7,067 nt of DNA, taken from Planctomycetota bacterium. GTDB taxonomy: Bacteria > Planctomycetota > Phycisphaerae > UBA1845 > UTPLA1. Below the pieces are notes generated by a model, which made no database searches, was not told the origin of the DNA, and saw nothing but the letters and a program-made list of their open reading frames with translations. Location of the stretch: the NCBI GenBank assembly GCA_027295245.1, contig JAPULF010000489.1, positions 1 to 7,067 on the forward strand. Direction: 5' to 3'. The position numbers were made by a program, and so were the translations under genes. Below, piece after piece: positions 53-7,067 of the stretch. Numbering within the stretch: the stretch's first letter is position 1; each line of letters begins with the position of its first letter.

Positions 53-2113
53 TCACAGGACTTCTTCGACCTCACTCCGTGAGCCCAGGAGAATGACCGT
101 ATTTGGATGTATTTTTCGCCATTCGCCCAGCGGAACCGGAGCGGGCTTTTCGATAAACGGAATCGTCTCACCCTTTCTGGGCCCGGAGATGGCGGTCCAC
201 TGGTTGTCGTCCAGGGGATACCAGAGACTTTCAGTACGCCGATCGAATATCAGGAAAACGTTCCGATGCACGTAACCACTGACGCCAAACGAGTCGGTGT
301 CTCGTCCGTGCACGACGGACAGATTGGCAAGCGGTCACCAACCGATCGTGACGGGCATCCCGTCGACGTGGTCGTTGACGAGTTCGTGGCGGTCGAGCAG
401 GGCGGCGGGATAGGCGCGGGCATCGTCGCCGCGGGCGAAGCCGATGACCATGATTTCGTCGTTCGACTCGGGTTGCTCGTCGGGTCGGTAGCGACTCGCG
501 GGCAGGTCCAACAAGCGGGGATCGTCGGGCGAAACGAACAGGGGGTCGTCGATCGATCGAATCTTGTCCTGTCCGATACCGAATTGAAGCTCGGCTGAAG
601 GTATTGGGGCGCCCGTAAAGTCGTACCACTTGGCTTCGGACGTGTCGCGCTCGCCGGACGCCCATAGCAGAGTCCTGCTTCCGACATCCCGCACCTTGTC
701 GTTGTCGGGTCCGAGGAGCCCACGATACTTCGGCTCTGCCTCGACCTGCTGCGTGGCCGTATCGGAAGCATCGGACGACTTGGCACGCGTTCCCGTGCAG
801 TCCAACTCGCCAAACGGTCCGTTGTACTTGCCGGTGATTCGATTGCCGTTTACTCGGCCGACGAACGTCAGCGTACGATCGCCGCGCATCGATCGCGTGA
901 AGCTGAGCTTCTCGCCGTCGAATTCAATATCGCTCATTTCCATGTCGCGGCCCATGCTTTGCCAGCTTCCGACCAGGGCGCCGTCCCGGACGGACAGCTT
1001 CATGGTCGCCTCGATTGTGTTCTCGTTGAAGCTCGTTTCCATGCTCCACTCGCCCAGGATCCCCGCGAAACCGGACGGCTTCTCGCGCCGGACTGCCGTT
1101 GGCTCGGCGGGCTGCTCCAGGCGCTTCACCAGATTCCGGAAGCGACTTTCCGCGCGAATGATCTTGAAGTCCCAATCGTTGCGAAGGTGACCCGCGTCGG
1201 CGTAGCCGGCGTCGATGGCCTTTTCGAGCGATTGATAGGCCGCGTTCTTGTCGCCGAGCAGGCAATGGAGGCAAGCGACGTTGTAATGGCAGTCGCTGTC
1301 TTCGGGTCGGATTTCAAGCATGCTTTGGGCGACCTTCAAGGCCTTCGCGTAGTCCGCCTTCCGGTAGGTCCGAGCGAGCTTGCGGCGCAGCTCGTCGAAA
1401 CCAGGGACGTCCTTCTTGTCGGCGGCCGGCGACGATTCGCCAACGTCTTCGCCGGCCTCGGCAAGCGCCGGCTCGTCGCCGTCATCCCGGTAGTCGGCCA
1501 GCCATTCGGCGACTGCCTCCACGCCGGGCTTGAATCCAAAGGGCCCGCGACCGGACGCCACGCCGAGCCGCCCGTCCTTGCGGACGAGATACACGCGATC
1601 GGGCCGGGCCTGATAGGCATCCGCGACGGCGTTGTCCATGTTGTCGATCAGACACGGGATCGTCAGCTTCTTTTCCTTGACGAGCCTTTCGGCGACCGCG
1701 CAGCGCTCGCCGAAGTCGGTGTGCTTGTTGATGCCGAGATCCTTGGCATACGGTACGGGCCAACTGCTGTCGGCGGCGTGGGCCTCGCTGATGTAGACGA
1801 TGTAGAATTCGGCGGCGTCCTTGTAGTCCTGGTACATCTTTTCCATTGCGCCAACCTGGCGCAAAAAGGGCGGTCAGGTGTAGCTGCCGAAAAACAGGAT
1901 CACCGGCCGCTTGTCGGCAAACGACGCGAGGTCGACCTGGGCCTTGCCGTCGAGCGTCTTGAGACGGAAGGTCGGCGCCACCTCGCCCTTCTTCGGCGCC
2001 TTTTGCCGTCGCGACGATCTATCTTCTTCGGGTGCGCGGCCCGCGACCGCCGAAACATGTAGACCACAGCAAGCGGTCGCAATCAAGGCCGCGATCAGGG
2101 TTCGATTCCGCAT
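53..2113 (-). CDS. Exported two-selenocysteine protein: deiodinase-like domain, TPR, beta domain, DUF3179
   Basis: I read this as one 686-codon frame with two internal UGA codons, at residues 80 and 593. The ATG at 2113 has AAGGAG five bases upstream and begins a signal peptide (MRNRTLIAALIATACCG, residues 1 to about 24), so the protein is probably periplasmic. Residues about 47-209 match the iodothyronine deiodinase family: FGSYT-U-PPF, then YISEAHA. His112 lies 32 residues after Sec80, the same spacing as Sec126 and His158 in mammalian DIO1, and His131 fits DIO1 His174. Residues about 238-333 are TPR-like. Residues about 349-445 look like a small lipocalin-like beta domain. Residues about 462-686 are DUF3179, with ARAYP, HELVND, W-U-PLA, FGVSG and DRRTESLW. 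The second Cys of the usual CPLC is Ala595. Without UGA decoding the product would be a 79-residue fragment. Reductive or redox chemistry is inferred; the substrate is unknown, and thyroid-hormone deiodination should not be assumed. Confidence 0.9.
304..320 (-). promoter_or_regulatory. Candidate bacterial SECIS hairpin for Sec593
   Basis: Fourteen nt after the second UGA the mRNA can form a 6-bp stem, GUCCGU with ACGGAC, around the loop CGUGC. The loop starts 20 nt after the UGA and has G in its second position, within the usual bacterial SECIS limits. The stem is shorter than the one after the first UGA, and a 6-bp stem can occur by chance in GC-rich DNA. Its value comes from its position after a UGA that already looks like a Cys replacement. 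Confidence 0.68.
335..337 (-). other. In-frame UGA read as selenocysteine (residue 593), DUF3179 site
   Basis: The frame reads GMPVTIGW, then UGA, then PLANLSVVHGRDTDSFGVSG, with no shift. Typical DUF3179 proteins read roughly PVAVTFCPLCGSAVVFDR followed by FGVSG. The two align without a gap, and the UGA falls exactly on the first Cys of CPLC. The sequence after the UGA is clearly the conserved second half of the domain (FGVSG, DRRTESLW, EWRKIHPNT), so readthrough is needed for an intact domain. Confidence 0.85.
1846..1864 (-). promoter_or_regulatory. Candidate bacterial SECIS hairpin for Sec80
   Basis: The mRNA downstream of the first UGA folds into a perfect 8-bp stem, UUGCGCCA with UGGCGCAA, around a GGU triloop. 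With the top A-U pair open, the loop is AGGUU. The loop begins 17 nt after the UGA. Bacterial SECIS elements have their apical loop roughly 16-37 nt after UGA and a G in the first two loop positions; both hold here. The AGGU of the opened loop resembles the E. coli fdhF loop (AGGUCU). I recognised this by eye, without a folding program. The stem lies inside the coding sequence, as in bacteria. Confidence 0.82.
1874..1876 (-). other. In-frame UGA read as selenocysteine (residue 80), deiodinase site
   Basis: The frame runs through this UGA without a shift: ILFFGSYT before it and PPFLRQVGAMEKMY after it. Vertebrate deiodinases have GSCT-U-PPF or GSCT-U-PSF at the same place. The family homology continues on both sides (AhpC-like N-terminal half before it, EAHA histidine motif after it). 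A true stop here would cut the thioredoxin fold at its active site. Confidence 0.93.
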
Positions 2114-2256: not shown

Positions 2257-2355
2257 TCAGGGACTGAGCACCGATGCGATGAAAGCTTGGGTAATCCCGA
2301 AGATGAAATTGAGGAATTGGGCGAAAAAGATCGTAAACAGGTCAAAGAACGCCAT
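2257..2355 (-). CDS. Small 32-residue hydrophobic membrane peptide, overlapping the cusA 3' end
   Basis: The frame reads MAFFDLFTIFFAQF, continues LNFIFGITQAFIASVLSP and stops at UGA. It is almost entirely hydrophobic with many Phe and Ile residues, and could form one membrane helix. Its ATG lies inside the last codons of the cusA-type gene in another frame, with a 14-base overlap. A perfect AGGAGG lies six bases before the ATG. Such overlap usually means translational coupling. I recognise no family. Small single-helix partners of RND pumps exist (AcrZ with AcrB in E. coli), so a pump-associated subunit is a reasonable guess, not a demonstration. The ribosome binding site is the main reason to believe the gene. 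Confidence 0.72.
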   Translation of the reverse strand: MAFFDLFTIFFAQFLNFIFGITQAFIASVLSP

Positions 2356-5300
2356 TGGCTGCCTCCTGAACCAAGTGTGATTGCCGCATGTCTCGCCGCA
2401 CCTCGAACTGCTTGGCCACCAGGAAAATGACCGGGTAGACCAGTAGCTCCATGGCGAAACTCGTGAGCAGGCCGCCGAACATCGGTGCGGCCATGCGTTT
2501 CATAACAGCGGAGCCGGTGCCCGTTCCAATCATGATCGGCACGAGCCCCATCATCGTGGTCATGACCGTCATGGTCTTGGGGCGAATCCGAAGGACGGCG
2601 CCTTCGTGTATCGCCGTCTTCAGGTCGGCCAGGCTCTTCATTCGCCCTTCGGCCTTGGCCCGATCATAACTGTTGCGAAGGTACAGGAGCATCACCATGC
2701 CCGTTTCGGCATCCAGTCCGGCCAATGCAATCAAGCCCACCCACACGGCCAGCGACATGTTGTAGTCCGCCAGGTAGAGAAACCAGATCGCGCCAACCAG
2801 GCTGAACGGGACGGCCAACAGTACGACGCAGGTATCAAACCAGCTCTTGTGCGACAGGTAGAGCAGCAGGATGATGATGACAAAGACACCCGGCACCGCG
2901 ACCGCCAGCCGTTTGTTGGCGGCCTGGATGTACTCGTATTGCCCGGACCAGATGATGTTGTAACCGGCGGGAAGCGGTACGGTCTCGGAAACGAGCTGCT
3001 TGGCCTTGTCGACCCAGCCCCCGACGTCGGTTGTGGTGAGGTCTACGTAAATCCAGGCGGTCTTGCGGGCGTTCTCACTCTTGATCGACGGCGGACCCTT
3101 GTGGACGTTGATGTCGGCCAATTGGGCCAGAGGTACCTGTGCGCCGGACGGCGTGGTCACCAGCGTTCGCTTGAGAGCCGGCAGATTGTCCCGAAGCTCG
3201 CGCTTGTAGCGAAGATTCACGGGGTACCGTTCGAGTCCTTCGACGGTCGAAGTGATGTTCATACCGCCCATCGCTGAGAGGATCACGTCCTGTACGTCGC
3301 CGACGCGGAGACCGTACCGAGCGACCTCATCGCGGTTGATGTCGAAATCCACGTAGTTTCCACCGACCGATTTCTCCGGATAGGCGCTCAACGTGTCCGG
3401 CTGCACGCGGACCTGCGAGGCAATTTGCTCCGCCAGGTCGGCGAGAACCGCCAAATCGTCGCCCATGATCTTGATGCCAACCGGGGTTTTTATTCCGGTT
3501 GACAGCATGTCGATTCGCGTCTTGATCGGCATGGTCCAGGAGTTGGTCAGACCGGGGAAGGCGACGATTTCGTTGAGCCCGCGCACGTGCTCGCCCTGAT
3601 CTTCGTAGCCGTAGGTGAGTTCGTCGATGGTGATCGGGCGTTCCTCCGGCCAGAAGTAGTGCAGCCCTGAGTAGTCCTTGACGAACTCCGGCACGAACGC
3701 GAACCAGCGTTTGAAATGCCGCTTGCGCCATTTGTCACTGTCGGGTTCGAGCATGATCGTGGTCTCGATCATGCTCAGCGGGGCCGGGTCGGTGGCTGTT
3801 TCGGCCCGCCCGATCTTGCCGAAGACGTGATGAACCTCCGGAAAGCTGGCAATGAGGGCATCGGTCTGCTGAAGCAGTTCCCGGGCCTTGGTGACGCTGA
3901 TGCCCGGATCGGTCGTGGGCATGTAGAGCAGGTCGCCCTCGTTGAGGGGAGGCATGAACTCGCTTCCCAGTTGTCGGGTCATCTTGAGCCAGGCGATGTT
4001 GTCGCCGATGACCTGCCGGCCAAAGAGGTATTCCTGTAGGGGAAAAATGATGCTCAAGATGACCAACAGGGCGATCAACAGGGTTACATATTTGCCTCGC
4101 ATGGCGATCTGGAAGAACGGTTCGTAGACTCGCTGAAGGAAACGGCTGATCGGATTGCGCTGTTCGTTGGGGATTCGGCCGCGGATGAAGTAGATCATCA
4201 GCACGGGAACCACGGTGATGGACAGGAGCGCCGATGCCCCCATCGCGAACGTCTTAGTAAAGGCCAACGGCTTGAATAGCCGCCCGCTCTGTTCGCCGAG
4301 CACGAAAATGGGAATGAAACTGACCGTGATGATCAGCAGGGAAAAGAACAGCGTGGGGCCCACTTCCTTGGCCGCCTCGATAATGATCTCGGCGTGGGGT
4401 TTTTTCCCTTTGTCGCGTTCATAGTGTTTGTGGGCGTTCTCGACCATGACGATCGAGCTGTCGACCATCGCGCCGACGGCGATGGCGATGCCGCCCAGGC
4501 TCATGATATTCGCGTTGAGACCCATCACCTGCATGATGATCAGGCTGGCTAACACCGCGGTCGGGATTACGAAGATCGCCACAAGACTGCTCCTCAGGTG
4601 GAGCAGGAAGACGGCACAGACGAGGGCCACGACGATCAGCTCCTCGATCAGTTTTTCCGTCAGCGAGTCAACGGCCCTTTCGATCAAGGCCGAGCGGTCG
4701 TACTCGGTGACCACGTCCACGCCGGGCGGCAATCCTTGCTTCAGTTCGTCGATCCTGCTCTTGGTGTTGCGGATCACCTGCAGGGCGTTTTCCCCGAAGC
4801 GCATGATGACGATGCCGCCGACGACTTCGCCTTCGCCATCTTCCTCCGCGATTCCGCGCCGAAGCTCGGGGCCGAGATGGACGTCGGCGACGTCGCGAAG
4901 GTATACGGGTGTGCCCGTGGCGGTGGCGCGGATGGCGATCTTCTTCAGGTCCTCCAGCCCTTGCCGGGCCCGAGCCCGAAAGAGCGGCACGCCTTTCTCC
5001 TTCGCCTCGCGGACCTGCCGCGGCGTGAGCGAAGCGATGTATCCTCTGCCGCGGACCATGTACTCCGTTTCTGACATCTCCAGGACGCGGCCGCCCACGT
5101 CGTTGTTGGATCTCTGAATGGCGGTCTTGACCTGGCTGAGAGGGATGTTGTAGGCAAGCAGGCGATTCGGATCGACGACGACCTGGTATTGCCGCACGAA
5201 GCCGCCGATCGCGGCGACTTCGGAGACTCCCTTCACGGCGGTCAACTCATATCGGAGATACCAGTCCTGAAGACTGCGCAGTTCCGACAGGTCGTATTCG

Positions 5301-5914
5301 CCGAGGACGAGTTCGGTCTCGCCGTCCCAAGGACAAGTGCCGGCGTGTTCGAAGATGCGGACCCGATCCAACTCATCTCGGATATCCTCGGGAGCCTCCT
5401 GAATCGTGCCATACCACTTGTCGGGCCGGTCCGGATGGTGATACATCCCATTGGGGTGATGCGGGCAGTAATAGCCGTTGCGGATGGAATACTGATACAC
5501 CCAGCCGACGCCGGTCGCGTCGGGGCCGAGCTGGGGCGTGATTCCCGCGGGCAGCCGGTTGGCAACGTAGTTAAGAGACTCCAGGACGCGGGACCGCGCC
5601 CAGTACATGTCCGTACCGTCCTCGAAGATGACATAGACAAACGAAATCCCGAAGAACGAGTAGCCGCGCACGACCTTGGCGAAGGGGACGGCAAGCATGG
5701 AGGTGGTCAGAGGATACGTTACCTGGTCTTCGACGACTTGGGGGGCCTGGCCTGGGAACTCCGTGAAGATGATGACCTGCACGTCAGACAGGTCTGGAAT
5801 CGCGTCCAGGCGTATGTTGTAAATCGTCCAAATCCCGCCCAGCACAACAAACCCGGTGAGCAGCAGGACAAGCAATCGATTCTTGCCACAGTATTCAATA
5901 ACTTTCGCGATCAT
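2342..5914 (-). CDS. cusA: CusA-type copper/silver RND efflux pump, inner-membrane subunit
   Basis: This 1190-residue heavy-metal RND permease would export Cu(I)/Ag(I) by proton antiport as part of a trimeric tripartite pump. I chose the ATG at 5914 because MIAKVIEYCGKNRLLVLLL is the normal family N-terminus; GAGAG ten bases upstream is a modest ribosome site. Family motifs include LSDVQVIIFTEFPGQAPQVV, GGIAIAVGAMVDSSIVMVEN and GTGSAVMKRMAAPM. The three Met ligands of E. coli CusA (573, 623, 672) correspond to Met665 (LLYMP), Met715 (PLSMIETT) and Met803 (RIDMLSTGIK). The relay residues Asp405, Glu939 and Lys984 correspond to Asp485, Glu1070 and Lys1113. It is longer than E. coli CusA (1047 residues) because of insertions at about residues 148-206 (Cys/His rich), 296-322 and 730-769. 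It lies 26 bases after the metal-binding protein gene, in an apparent operon. Copper versus silver specificity cannot be told apart. Confidence 0.95.
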   Translation of the reverse strand: MIAKVIEYCGKNRLLVLLLTGFVVLGGIWTIYNIRLDAIPDLSDVQVIIFTEFPGQAPQVVEDQVTYPLTTSMLAVPFAKVVRGYSFFGISFVYVIFEDGTDMYWARSRVLESLNYVANRLPAGITPQLGPDATGVGWVYQYSIRNGYYCPHHPNGMYHHPDRPDKWYGTIQEAPEDIRDELDRVRIFEHAGTCPWDGETELVLGEYDLSELRSLQDWYLRYELTAVKGVSEVAAIGGFVRQYQVVVDPNRLLAYNIPLSQVKTAIQRSNNDVGGRVLEMSETEYMVRGRGYIASLTPRQVREAKEKGVPLFRARARQGLEDLKKIAIRATATGTPVYLRDVADVHLGPELRRGIAEEDGEGEVVGGIVIMRFGENALQVIRNTKSRIDELKQGLPPGVDVVTEYDRSALIERAVDSLTEKLIEELIVVALVCAVFLLHLRSSLVAIFVIPTAVLASLIIMQVMGLNANIMSLGGIAIAVGAMVDSSIVMVENAHKHYERDKGKKPHAEIIIEAAKEVGPTLFFSLLIITVSFIPIFVLGEQSGRLFKPLAFTKTFAMGASALLSITVVPVLMIYFIRGRIPNEQRNPISRFLQRVYEPFFQIAMRGKYVTLLIALLVILSIIFPLQEYLFGRQVIGDNIAWLKMTRQLGSEFMPPLNEGDLLYMPTTDPGISVTKARELLQQTDALIASFPEVHHVFGKIGRAETATDPAPLSMIETTIMLEPDSDKWRKRHFKRWFAFVPEFVKDYSGLHYFWPEERPITIDELTYGYEDQGEHVRGLNEIVAFPGLTNSWTMPIKTRIDMLSTGIKTPVGIKIMGDDLAVLADLAEQIASQVRVQPDTLSAYPEKSVGGNYVDFDINRDEVARYGLRVGDVQDVILSAMGGMNITSTVEGLERYPVNLRYKRELRDNLPALKRTLVTTPSGAQVPLAQLADINVHKGPPSIKSENARKTAWIYVDLTTTDVGGWVDKAKQLVSETVPLPAGYNIIWSGQYEYIQAANKRLAVAVPGVFVIIILLLYLSHKSWFDTCVVLLAVPFSLVGAIWFLYLADYNMSLAVWVGLIALAGLDAETGMVMLLYLRNSYDRAKAEGRMKSLADLKTAIHEGAVLRIRPKTMTVMTTMMGLVPIMIGTGTGSAVMKRMAAPMFGGLLTSFAMELLVYPVIFLVAKQFEVRRDMRQSHLVQEAANGVL
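2362..2367 (-). promoter_or_regulatory. Consensus ribosome binding site of the small membrane peptide
   Basis: AGGAGG with six bases (CAGCCA) to the ATG at 2355. It sits inside the last codons of the pump gene and serves no other visible start. It is the strongest Shine-Dalgarno sequence I see in the window. Confidence 0.8.
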
Positions 5915-5924
5915 CGCAAATGAA

Positions 5925-5940: not shown

Positions 5941-7067
5941 CTACTTGGTTTCGACGAGTTTGCCGCAGTCGAGCATCTTGAAGCCGTAGTACGGGTTGGC
6001 CTTCTTCTCGCTCGTTTGGATCCAATCGGCCTGACTCATCGGGCAGTGAAAGATGTAGAGCTTGGGCCAGCGTTTTTGATCCGGCCTTACGTCGTTCAAC
6101 ATCGACCGCACTGCGGTACTGACCTCGCCGAACAGTGCCCGATCGCTTGCGATGTCCGTTCCGGCAATCTTCAGGGTTGCAACGTGCAGTTTCCGAGCTG
6201 CCGCCAAGAGGGCGCCCCGCTCGTGCTCCTCGCCATCCCCGAGCAGCTTGACCAAGGCCTCGCTGGCCCCGACCAGGCCCAAGGCGTTTCGGGCGACATC
6301 GGTTGTCTTGTCGGCTGCCAGGAGGGTCTGCAGGGCCAGGTAATGCTCGGTGATGAAGTCAATCTGCCGTCGGATTTGCTCCGGCCCGGCACCCAAACCA
6401 ACGATCGACTCCACCGGTACGAGTTGCATCGCGCAAAGGCGGCAGGTGCCCGGCTGGTCCTGTTCGCCCTCGTTCACGTGCATCGGACAGACGAATTTGG
6501 TGGGCGCAACCACGGAACGTGCCAACTTGTCGGCCCAGGGTACATCCTCGATCGACTTGAGCTTCATGCCGCACGTCGGACACCGATCCTCGGTCTCGGA
6601 GAATTGCCAGCACTCCTCCATCGGACAGACAAACTTTGCGCCCGCTGGAATCTTACGCGGCTGGTCGCCGGCCACGACCGGAGCCGCTTCCACCAAGGCC
6701 TGGGCGCAAATCGTGCAGGGGCCGGGCTCGTTGCTGTGAACCAGCGGGTGTGCGTCGCAGTGGTACCGAGCAGCCTCTGCGGGCGCGGCGTCCGCGGGCT
6801 CGTTCCTCTGCGCCATTTCATCACCCAGCCAGGGGCCGCGAAATGCAACCAACGGATCGAGGCAGCGCGGGCAATCGCTCAGGAGTGTGCTGATCTCGCC
6901 GGCGTGCTCGGGATCGCGGCAGGTGTACATGACCTTGAAGGCCTCCAGCTTTTTGCCGCAGCGTGGGCAGTCGCCCGGGCGATCGGAGAATACGTGGTCG
7001 TGCTTCGGGCAGGTATAGCCCACGTCCGCCCCCTCGGCGGCCTTCATCGCCTGCACCCACTGTAGCT
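5941..7067 (-). CDS. Heavy-metal-binding protein with five Cys modules and a DUF3347-like C-terminus (5' end cut by window)
   Basis: The frame is open to the window edge and ends at UAG. Counting from the GTG at 7056, it has 371 residues. Five modules resemble the heavy-metal-binding domain seen with CusB-type adaptors (family pattern YTCPMHP, then PGKCPKCGM). They start at Cys16, 46, 100, 144 and 190 and each ends in a C-x-x-C pair, for example CPRCG and CPTCGM. A helical segment at about 225-330 is followed by FHCPMSQADWIQ, NPYYGFKM and CG, which I recognise as DUF3347-like. No barrel-sandwich or HlyD adaptor region is visible, so it is not a complete CusB as seen here; such a part may lie upstream. 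An ATG at 7047 is a possible start, but no clear ribosome site precedes it, so I treat the gene as partial. Its place directly before cusA suggests periplasmic metal capture or delivery to the pump. Confidence 0.85.
   Translation of the reverse strand, partial: LQWVQAMKAAEGADVGYTCPKHDHVFSDRPGDCPRCGKKLEAFKVMYTCRDPEHAGEISTLLSDCPRCLDPLVAFRGPWLGDEMAQRNEPADAAPAEAARYHCDAHPLVHSNEPGPCTICAQALVEAAPVVAGDQPRKIPAGAKFVCPMEECWQFSETEDRCPTCGMKLKSIEDVPWADKLARSVVAPTKFVCPMHVNEGEQDQPGTCRLCAMQLVPVESIVGLGAGPEQIRRQIDFITEHYLALQTLLAADKTTDVARNALGLVGASEALVKLLGDGEEHERGALLAAARKLHVATLKIAGTDIASDRALFGEVSTAVRSMLNDVRPDQKRWPKLYIFHCPMSQADWIQTSEKKANPYYGFKMLDCGKLVETK

Follow-up and report, generated by a model that had tools for sequence, protein, structure and literature searches.

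The gene on the minus strand at 53..2113 of the window (the whole stretch of 7,067 nucleotides of planctomycete DNA that was analysed) very probably makes a double selenoprotein. The probability of the full reading was put at roughly three in four, namely that this is a likely exported protein with selenocysteine (Sec) at residues 80 and 593, that each of the two in-frame UGA codons is followed by a conserved hairpin, and that the two active sites are likely a coupled redox pair.

Reading frame and domains of the 686-residue protein

When TGA was translated as U, the minus-strand frame running from 2113 down to 53 gave 686 residues with U80 and U593. The features of the window are listed below.

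53..2113, minus strand: predicted double-selenocysteine gene (686 codons plus the TGA stop at 53-55)
2039..2113, minus strand: likely signal peptide, residues 1-25, possible lipoprotein (sequence read by eye)
1496..2005, minus strand: deiodinase-like thioredoxin-fold domain, residues 37-206 (Pfam PF00837; PDB deiodinases 2 and 3)
1874..1876, minus strand: in-frame UGA, predicted Sec80, motif GSYTUPPF (frame and alignment)
1846..1864, minus strand: SECIS-type hairpin 1, 8 bp stem, apical loop GGU (folds, shuffles and covariation)
1115..1399, minus strand: TPR region, residues about 239-333 (NCBIfam NF047558; weak Pfam TPR_9; model helices)
785..1054, minus strand: beta-strand domain, residues about 354-443 (structure model; matches and sequences of relatives)
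56..745, minus strand: DUF3179 region, residues 457-686 (Pfam PF11376; confident model)
335..337, minus strand: in-frame UGA, predicted Sec593, motif IGWUPLANL (frame and alignment)
303..321, minus strand: SECIS-type hairpin 2, 7 bp stem, apical loop CGUGC (folds and shuffles)
53..55, minus strand: TGA stop codon (frame reading and comparison with the ends of relatives)
2257-2355, minus strand: 32-residue hydrophobic ORF (AGGAGG-like site upstream)
2342-5917, minus strand: CusA/CzcA-type heavy-metal RND gene, in the same direction as the selenoprotein gene (Pfam/NCBIfam)
5941-7065, minus strand: gene with two heavy-metal-binding (HMBD) stretches, upstream of the CusA-type gene and in the same direction as the selenoprotein gene (Pfam/NCBIfam)

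A plus-strand reading of 53-2113 was ruled out, as the joined frame is that of the minus strand.

The Pfam search placed T4_deiodinase (PF00837) at residues 37-206 (106.4 bits, cut-off 27) and DUF3179 (PF11376) at residues 516-676 (89.7 bits, cut-off 27), and each domain therefore spans its UGA. The proposal of the preliminary description, that one gene runs across two in-frame UGA codons, was borne out by this and by the joined frame. The NCBIfam deiodinase family NF038285 (deiodinase_rel) scored 154.6 bits, below its cut-off of 250. For the TPR region, the TPR end-of-group domain NF047558 was matched at residues 276-330 in the NCBIfam search (50.6 bits, cut-off 32), and TPR_9 gave a weak Pfam match at residues 250-302, below its cut-off. 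The beta-strand domain lies between the TPR region and DUF3179, and is also present in several relatives. The DUF3179 region was modelled with a mean pLDDT of 93.7; its model had no convincing match among solved structures, and a Rieske ferredoxin fold was also considered for DUF3179. Judging by its N-terminal residues, the 686-residue protein is likely exported.

The TGA at 53-55 is very probably the true end of the gene, because relatives end at a similar distance after the second Sec. This distance was 95-115 codons in the relatives (to a TAA, TAG or TGA) vs 94 in the window, leaving aside one copy in genome G299, of the same family, that is cut at the edge of its locus. The neighbouring CusA gene also ends in TGA, and UGA is therefore used here without global reassignment.

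Conservation of the UGA codons, hairpins and Sec machinery

The protein was searched against 397 genomes of the class with a threshold of E 1e-10 or better, and 158 of these genomes gave a match. Among the matches listed, a TGA was present inside the match in 57 genomes of this sample, the window's included. In the fetched loci, the TGA fell exactly on the Sec80 column in 18 distinct sequences of the deiodinase domain and exactly on the Sec593 column in 22 distinct sequences of the DUF3179 domain, again with the window's included. The search of the joined translation suggested beforehand thus recovered relatives with UGA at the same columns for both domains. All 40 UGA-bearing domain sequences read UGACC; within the window frame, a CCG codon lies directly 3' of each UGA, so that the proline noted earlier after both sites was confirmed. 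Six relatives in the genome contig database were assigned to Phycisphaerae or Phycisphaerales (3), Planctomycetota (1), Pirellulales (1) and KSB1 (1).

The residues at these columns were more variable in distant homologs without UGA. Eight such homologs of the deiodinase domain had Cys (3), Ser (3), Ala (1) or Glu (1) at the Sec80 column, and twelve homologs of the DUF3179 domain had Cys (6), Ser (3), Asn (2) or Asp (1) at the Sec593 column. The earlier statement that both families have a redox Sec or Cys at these positions therefore holds for part of each family, but Cys was found in only 3/8 and 6/12 of the non-UGA homologs.

By standard translation the window locus gives three open frames, and pieces of this kind stand as separate proteins in the databases, as would be expected if the UGA codons were real stops and the locus were a broken gene or three separate genes. 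This is very improbable, and is already contradicted by conservation: the same UGA codons and their flanks recur, with hairpins, in the 18 and 22 distinct sequences, G299 has one long frame with both UGA codons, and the match to each Pfam domain continues across its UGA.

Both UGA codons are closely followed by a hairpin whose small apical loop contains G/U, which is the pattern of bacterial SECIS-type elements. The stem of hairpin 1 starts 9-10 bases downstream of the UGA and its loop is GGU in most sequences, and the stem of hairpin 2 starts 13-14 bases downstream, with G-U in the loop. As coding constrains the bases of a hairpin, synonymous recoding was used as the control: the codons of each sequence were replaced by synonymous ones taken from the same gene, and the stem was measured at a fixed place, which was picked after the folds had been seen. 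With kinship among the sequences not removed, the mean stem was 6.6 bp vs 2.5 bp in the shuffles at site 1 (18 sequences) and 7.7 bp vs 3.4 bp at site 2 (22 sequences), and at either site 0/2000 shuffles reached the observed value. For the window alone, the observed stem was reached by 0.2% (site 1) and 3.9% (site 2) of the synonymous shuffles. The non-UGA homologs (8 and 12) had a stem of 0-2 bp at the fixed place, and at other positions of the segment their longest possible stems reached 7 bp; one UGA-bearing deiodinase-domain relative (L023) kept only 2 bp at the fixed place.

For hairpin 1, changes on both sides were observed in 5 of 7 pairs, with a covariation score reached by 0/500 shuffles. 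Hairpin 2 was nearly invariant, with one double change, and its covariation was no more than that of the shuffles (243/500 reached the score). The folding energy of the whole segment was unremarkable against synonymous shuffles (window z -1.3 and +0.5). The segments after both UGA codons are stem-forming at the fixed place, and synonymous recoding does not account for the hairpins.

The window is contig C433 of a bin of 3.13 Mb in 653 contigs (75.5% complete, 2.3% contamination), and its GC content of 0.61 resembles that of 12 other stretches of the bin (0.59-0.63). The preliminary description had called for the Sec machinery in the source genome, and this was recovered in part. The selD gene of the bin (L007) was found, and itself has an in-frame UGA at 537 (active-site motif ASCAGUAGK) with a strong hairpin after it, but searches of this 75.5%-complete bin for selA, selB, the SelB wing domain and tRNA-Sec did not find them. 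All 16 of the other sampled genomes of the family had selA, selB and tRNA-Sec (16/16 for each). In G296 and G290, for example, selA adjoins selB, and therefore one missing stretch could remove both.

Across the class, with selA called at E 1e-30 or better, this gene was present in 54/57 genomes with a TGA-bearing match vs 92/340 of the others (matches listed, 397 genomes; p about 2e-23). The three genomes with a TGA match that lacked selA were the window's bin, G337 and G385, with completeness of 76, 88 and 83%, respectively; G337 has tRNA-Sec although selA was not found. Within the order, where selA is near-universal, it was present in 40/43 genomes with a UGA match vs 47/55 without (matches listed; p 0.34). 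Outside the order the values were 14/14 vs 45/285 (matches listed; p 3e-11), and all 14 of these UGA-match genomes had the deiodinase domain (among the matches listed). Given that there was no association within the order, the class-wide association reflects kinship together with the deiodinase domain outside the order. One selA match (G352:C353:463-1812) has one TGA inside, which may be a sequencing error or something odd.

The negative searches for selA, selB and tRNA-Sec in the bin are the sole point in favour of UGA standing for Trp or Cys rather than Sec, through a reassigned code or a suppressor tRNA. Hardly any weight can be given to this reading. The neighbouring CusA-type gene ends in TGA, the 20 fetched non-UGA homologs have Cys in 9 cases and Trp in none at the two sites, the tRNA-Trp genes in the fetched stretches of the bin are of the normal CCA type, SECIS-type hairpins are present, and the family has the Sec machinery. 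The description of the product as a probable two-selenocysteine protein was thus supported, with both UGA codons kept in relatives, SECIS-type hairpins after both, and a lineage that has the Sec machinery. Translation of such a gene would require UGA to be decoded twice, independently and with a separate conserved hairpin for each site, and would offer a test of recoding processivity in bacteria.

Joining of the two domains and comparison with known selenoproteins

The same domain order was found in G299, in one 896-residue frame with both UGA codons and a longer linker. This linker consists of TPR and a segment that is GDSL-like by eye, vs TPR and the beta domain in the window. Part of the G299 linker resembles, by eye, a stretch of the database protein P0006 that matches GDSL lipase at 20.1 bits, below the cut-off of 23.6. 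A GDSL/SGNH-like segment (by eye) recurs with deiodinase and DUF3179 domains, in varying places, in L021, L061 and P0004-P0009.

A protein database search returned eight proteins with both Pfam families (P0003-P0009 and P0011), and the last residues of all eight (..VGW or ..VCW) are those that lead up to the second Sec. Genomic flanks were compared for P0003 only among these eight. This protein starts 10 codons after the first UGA of G299, ends just before the second, and is a letter-for-letter match to that piece of G299, which agrees with the earlier expectation that gene callers break such genes. Double-Sec proteins are hidden in the databases because gene callers cut their genes into pieces.

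Among the matches listed, the UGA-bearing deiodinase domain was present in 44 genomes, the UGA-bearing DUF3179 domain in 31, and both in 18 (p 1.4e-11 over 397 genomes, with ancestry and completeness not corrected for). In the 98 genomes of the order that could be listed (matches listed), 18 had both, 12 only the deiodinase domain, 13 only DUF3179 and 55 neither (p 1.2e-4, again with ancestry and completeness not corrected for). The fusion was observed in at least 2 of the 18 genomes with both UGA domains, the window's and G299. In relatives, therefore, the two domains are mostly separate genes, which co-occur more than by chance. DUF3179 is joined to a thioredoxin-fold domain a second time in G305, where the Cys-type form of DUF3179 and an AhpC/TSA domain are fused in one protein (L073:3384-4826). 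That two uncharacterised selenoprotein families are joined and co-occur suggests that they take part in the same reaction, and gives a way to test what DUF3179 does. Separately, a DUF547 domain is fused to a UGA-bearing DUF3179 at L062:6308-7822 (G216).

A bacterial deiodinase-like selenoprotein (PF00837) was reported in the Sargasso Sea selenoproteome (PMC1088965); as described there, it has in common with the window domain a Sec in the active-site motif, a SECIS-type hairpin after the UGA, and Cys homologs. In the family table of a 2026 review (PMC13188914) the deiodinase-like proteins are a one-Sec family with the motif UxxC, whereas the window has UPPF. Unlike the known deiodinase-like selenoproteins, the window domain is one module of a two-Sec protein. 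The closest solved structures by sequence were those of DIO2 (E 8e-23) and DIO3 (E 1e-18; PDB 9h48, 4tr3), which were also the two best Foldseek matches of the full-length model. The PPF motif after the Sec/Cys and the EAH and M-N segments of DIO2 and DIO3 align with the window domain. For DIO2 the RC cysteine aligns too, and Cys138 and Cys154 of the window lie opposite DIO2 cysteines. In contrast to animal DIO2 and DIO3, the window protein is bacterial, likely exported and fused, and is deiodinase-like by sequence and fold alone.

The DUF3179 selenoprotein (PF11376) is likewise a one-Sec family in the table of the review, with the motif UxxC/T (PMC13188914), and the family also appears in PMC9312934. 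A planctomycete protein (P0022) has already been named 'DUF3179 domain-containing (seleno)protein' by NCBI. The DUF3179 region of the window is of the same Pfam family and has Sec at the Cys position. However, in place of the tabled UxxC/T the window has UPLA, and all 22 distinct sequences have UPLA or UPLV (UPLV in two relatives). The Sec-DUF3179 domains are also mostly without Cys, and at the C-terminus they end about 100 residues earlier than most of the fetched non-UGA homologs.

Double selenoproteins are known, including MbdU, methyltransferase/UXPK-star, the HUGP/GUXX-star fusion and others (Table 1, PMC13188914); they share with the window protein two Sec in one bacterial protein, and some are named as fusions in that table. 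By our own count, at least two Sec are allowed in 14 rows of the 119-family table of this review, and the joining of PF00837 and PF11376 is absent from the 119 families of the table. Relative to these tables and reports, each of the two domains is a published selenoprotein family; what is new is the two-Sec fusion, together with its UPPF and UPLA motifs and the way in which the two families pair.

Possible coupling of the active sites and the gene neighbourhood

A Cys was present at +58 of Sec80 in 17/18 deiodinase-domain sequences, and the remaining one has Cys at +61. Around the Sec of DUF3179, no Cys was present from -140 to +100 in 20/22 distinct sequences, with one each in L022 and L024. 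These 20 domains therefore have no internal partner for the selenol within this segment, and a partner from outside likely recycles it. The obvious candidate for this partner is the deiodinase domain, and a relay between the two is proposed.

In the mechanism that we propose, SelB with tRNA-Sec would decode both UGA codons, and the linker of TPR and beta domain would hold the two redox domains together. The deiodinase-like domain may reduce a halogenated, peroxidic or disulfide substrate, with Sec80 acting together with the conserved Glu/His of YISEAH and with Cys138 and Cys154, which are likely the resolving cysteines. Sec593 sits by itself in a DUF3179 domain that has no cysteine; its exchange partner would be Sec80 or a thiol reaching it by way of the deiodinase domain. 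A more specific form of this proposal is tentative and seems somewhat unlikely: DUF3179 would serve the deiodinase-like selenoenzymes of bacteria as their dedicated redox partner, and the fusion would be a Sec-to-Sec relay, in which Sec80 attacks the substrate and the Sec593 selenol resolves or recharges it through a diselenide. If this were true, DUF3179 would gain a function, and the presence of partner selenoproteins across the order would be explained.

The protein may instead be a double selenoprotein with independent domains, the fusion serving only for co-expression or localisation and no electrons passing between the selenols, a reading to which we give somewhat less than an even chance. 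In line with it, for 26/44 genomes with the UGA-bearing deiodinase domain and 13/31 with the UGA-bearing DUF3179, the matches listed included no UGA-bearing copy of the other domain, and the linkers of the window and G299 differ. The full-length model (pLDDT 81.6) had a pTM of 0.46, and the packing and relative placement of the domains are therefore not predicted. Independence is, however, at odds with the co-occurrence of the two domains beyond chance, with their fusion in the same order in G299 and with the eight database proteins that carry both families, and the mostly Cys-free Sec-DUF3179 needs an outside thiol or selenol. Coupled active sites are thus retained as the preferred reading.

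The gene order in the window is the heavy-metal-binding-domain gene, the CusA/CzcA-type RND gene, the 32-residue ORF and then the selenoprotein gene. The position after two metal-related genes might indicate a role in metal or metalloid handling, with a periplasmic selenol pair protecting against, or processing, metals or arsenic compounds. Arsenosugar genes were also found beside UGA genes in two relatives. In G216 (L062) the UGA DUF3179 gene directly follows the arsenosugar radical SAM gene ArsS (TIGR04167, 395 bits, cut-off 300), with TIGR04282 in the same neighbourhood. In G305 (L073) the UGA deiodinase gene is accompanied by TIGR04282/TIGR04283 arsenosugar glycosyltransferase domains and by an FAD oxidoreductase, for which a MerA match below its cut-off was also obtained. 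We nevertheless regard such a role as unlikely. The arsenosugar setting was seen in only 2/8 of the relatives' neighbourhoods in which some neighbours were scanned, and the others hold genes such as those for ATP synthase, a magnesium transporter and EngA. No relative of the CusA-type gene was present among the ORFs called in 26 other loci, a comparison that covered this gene and not the HMBD gene, and no conserved neighbour of the UGA genes was found across the compared loci. The 32-residue ORF precedes the selenoprotein gene and is overlapped by the end of the CusA-type gene.
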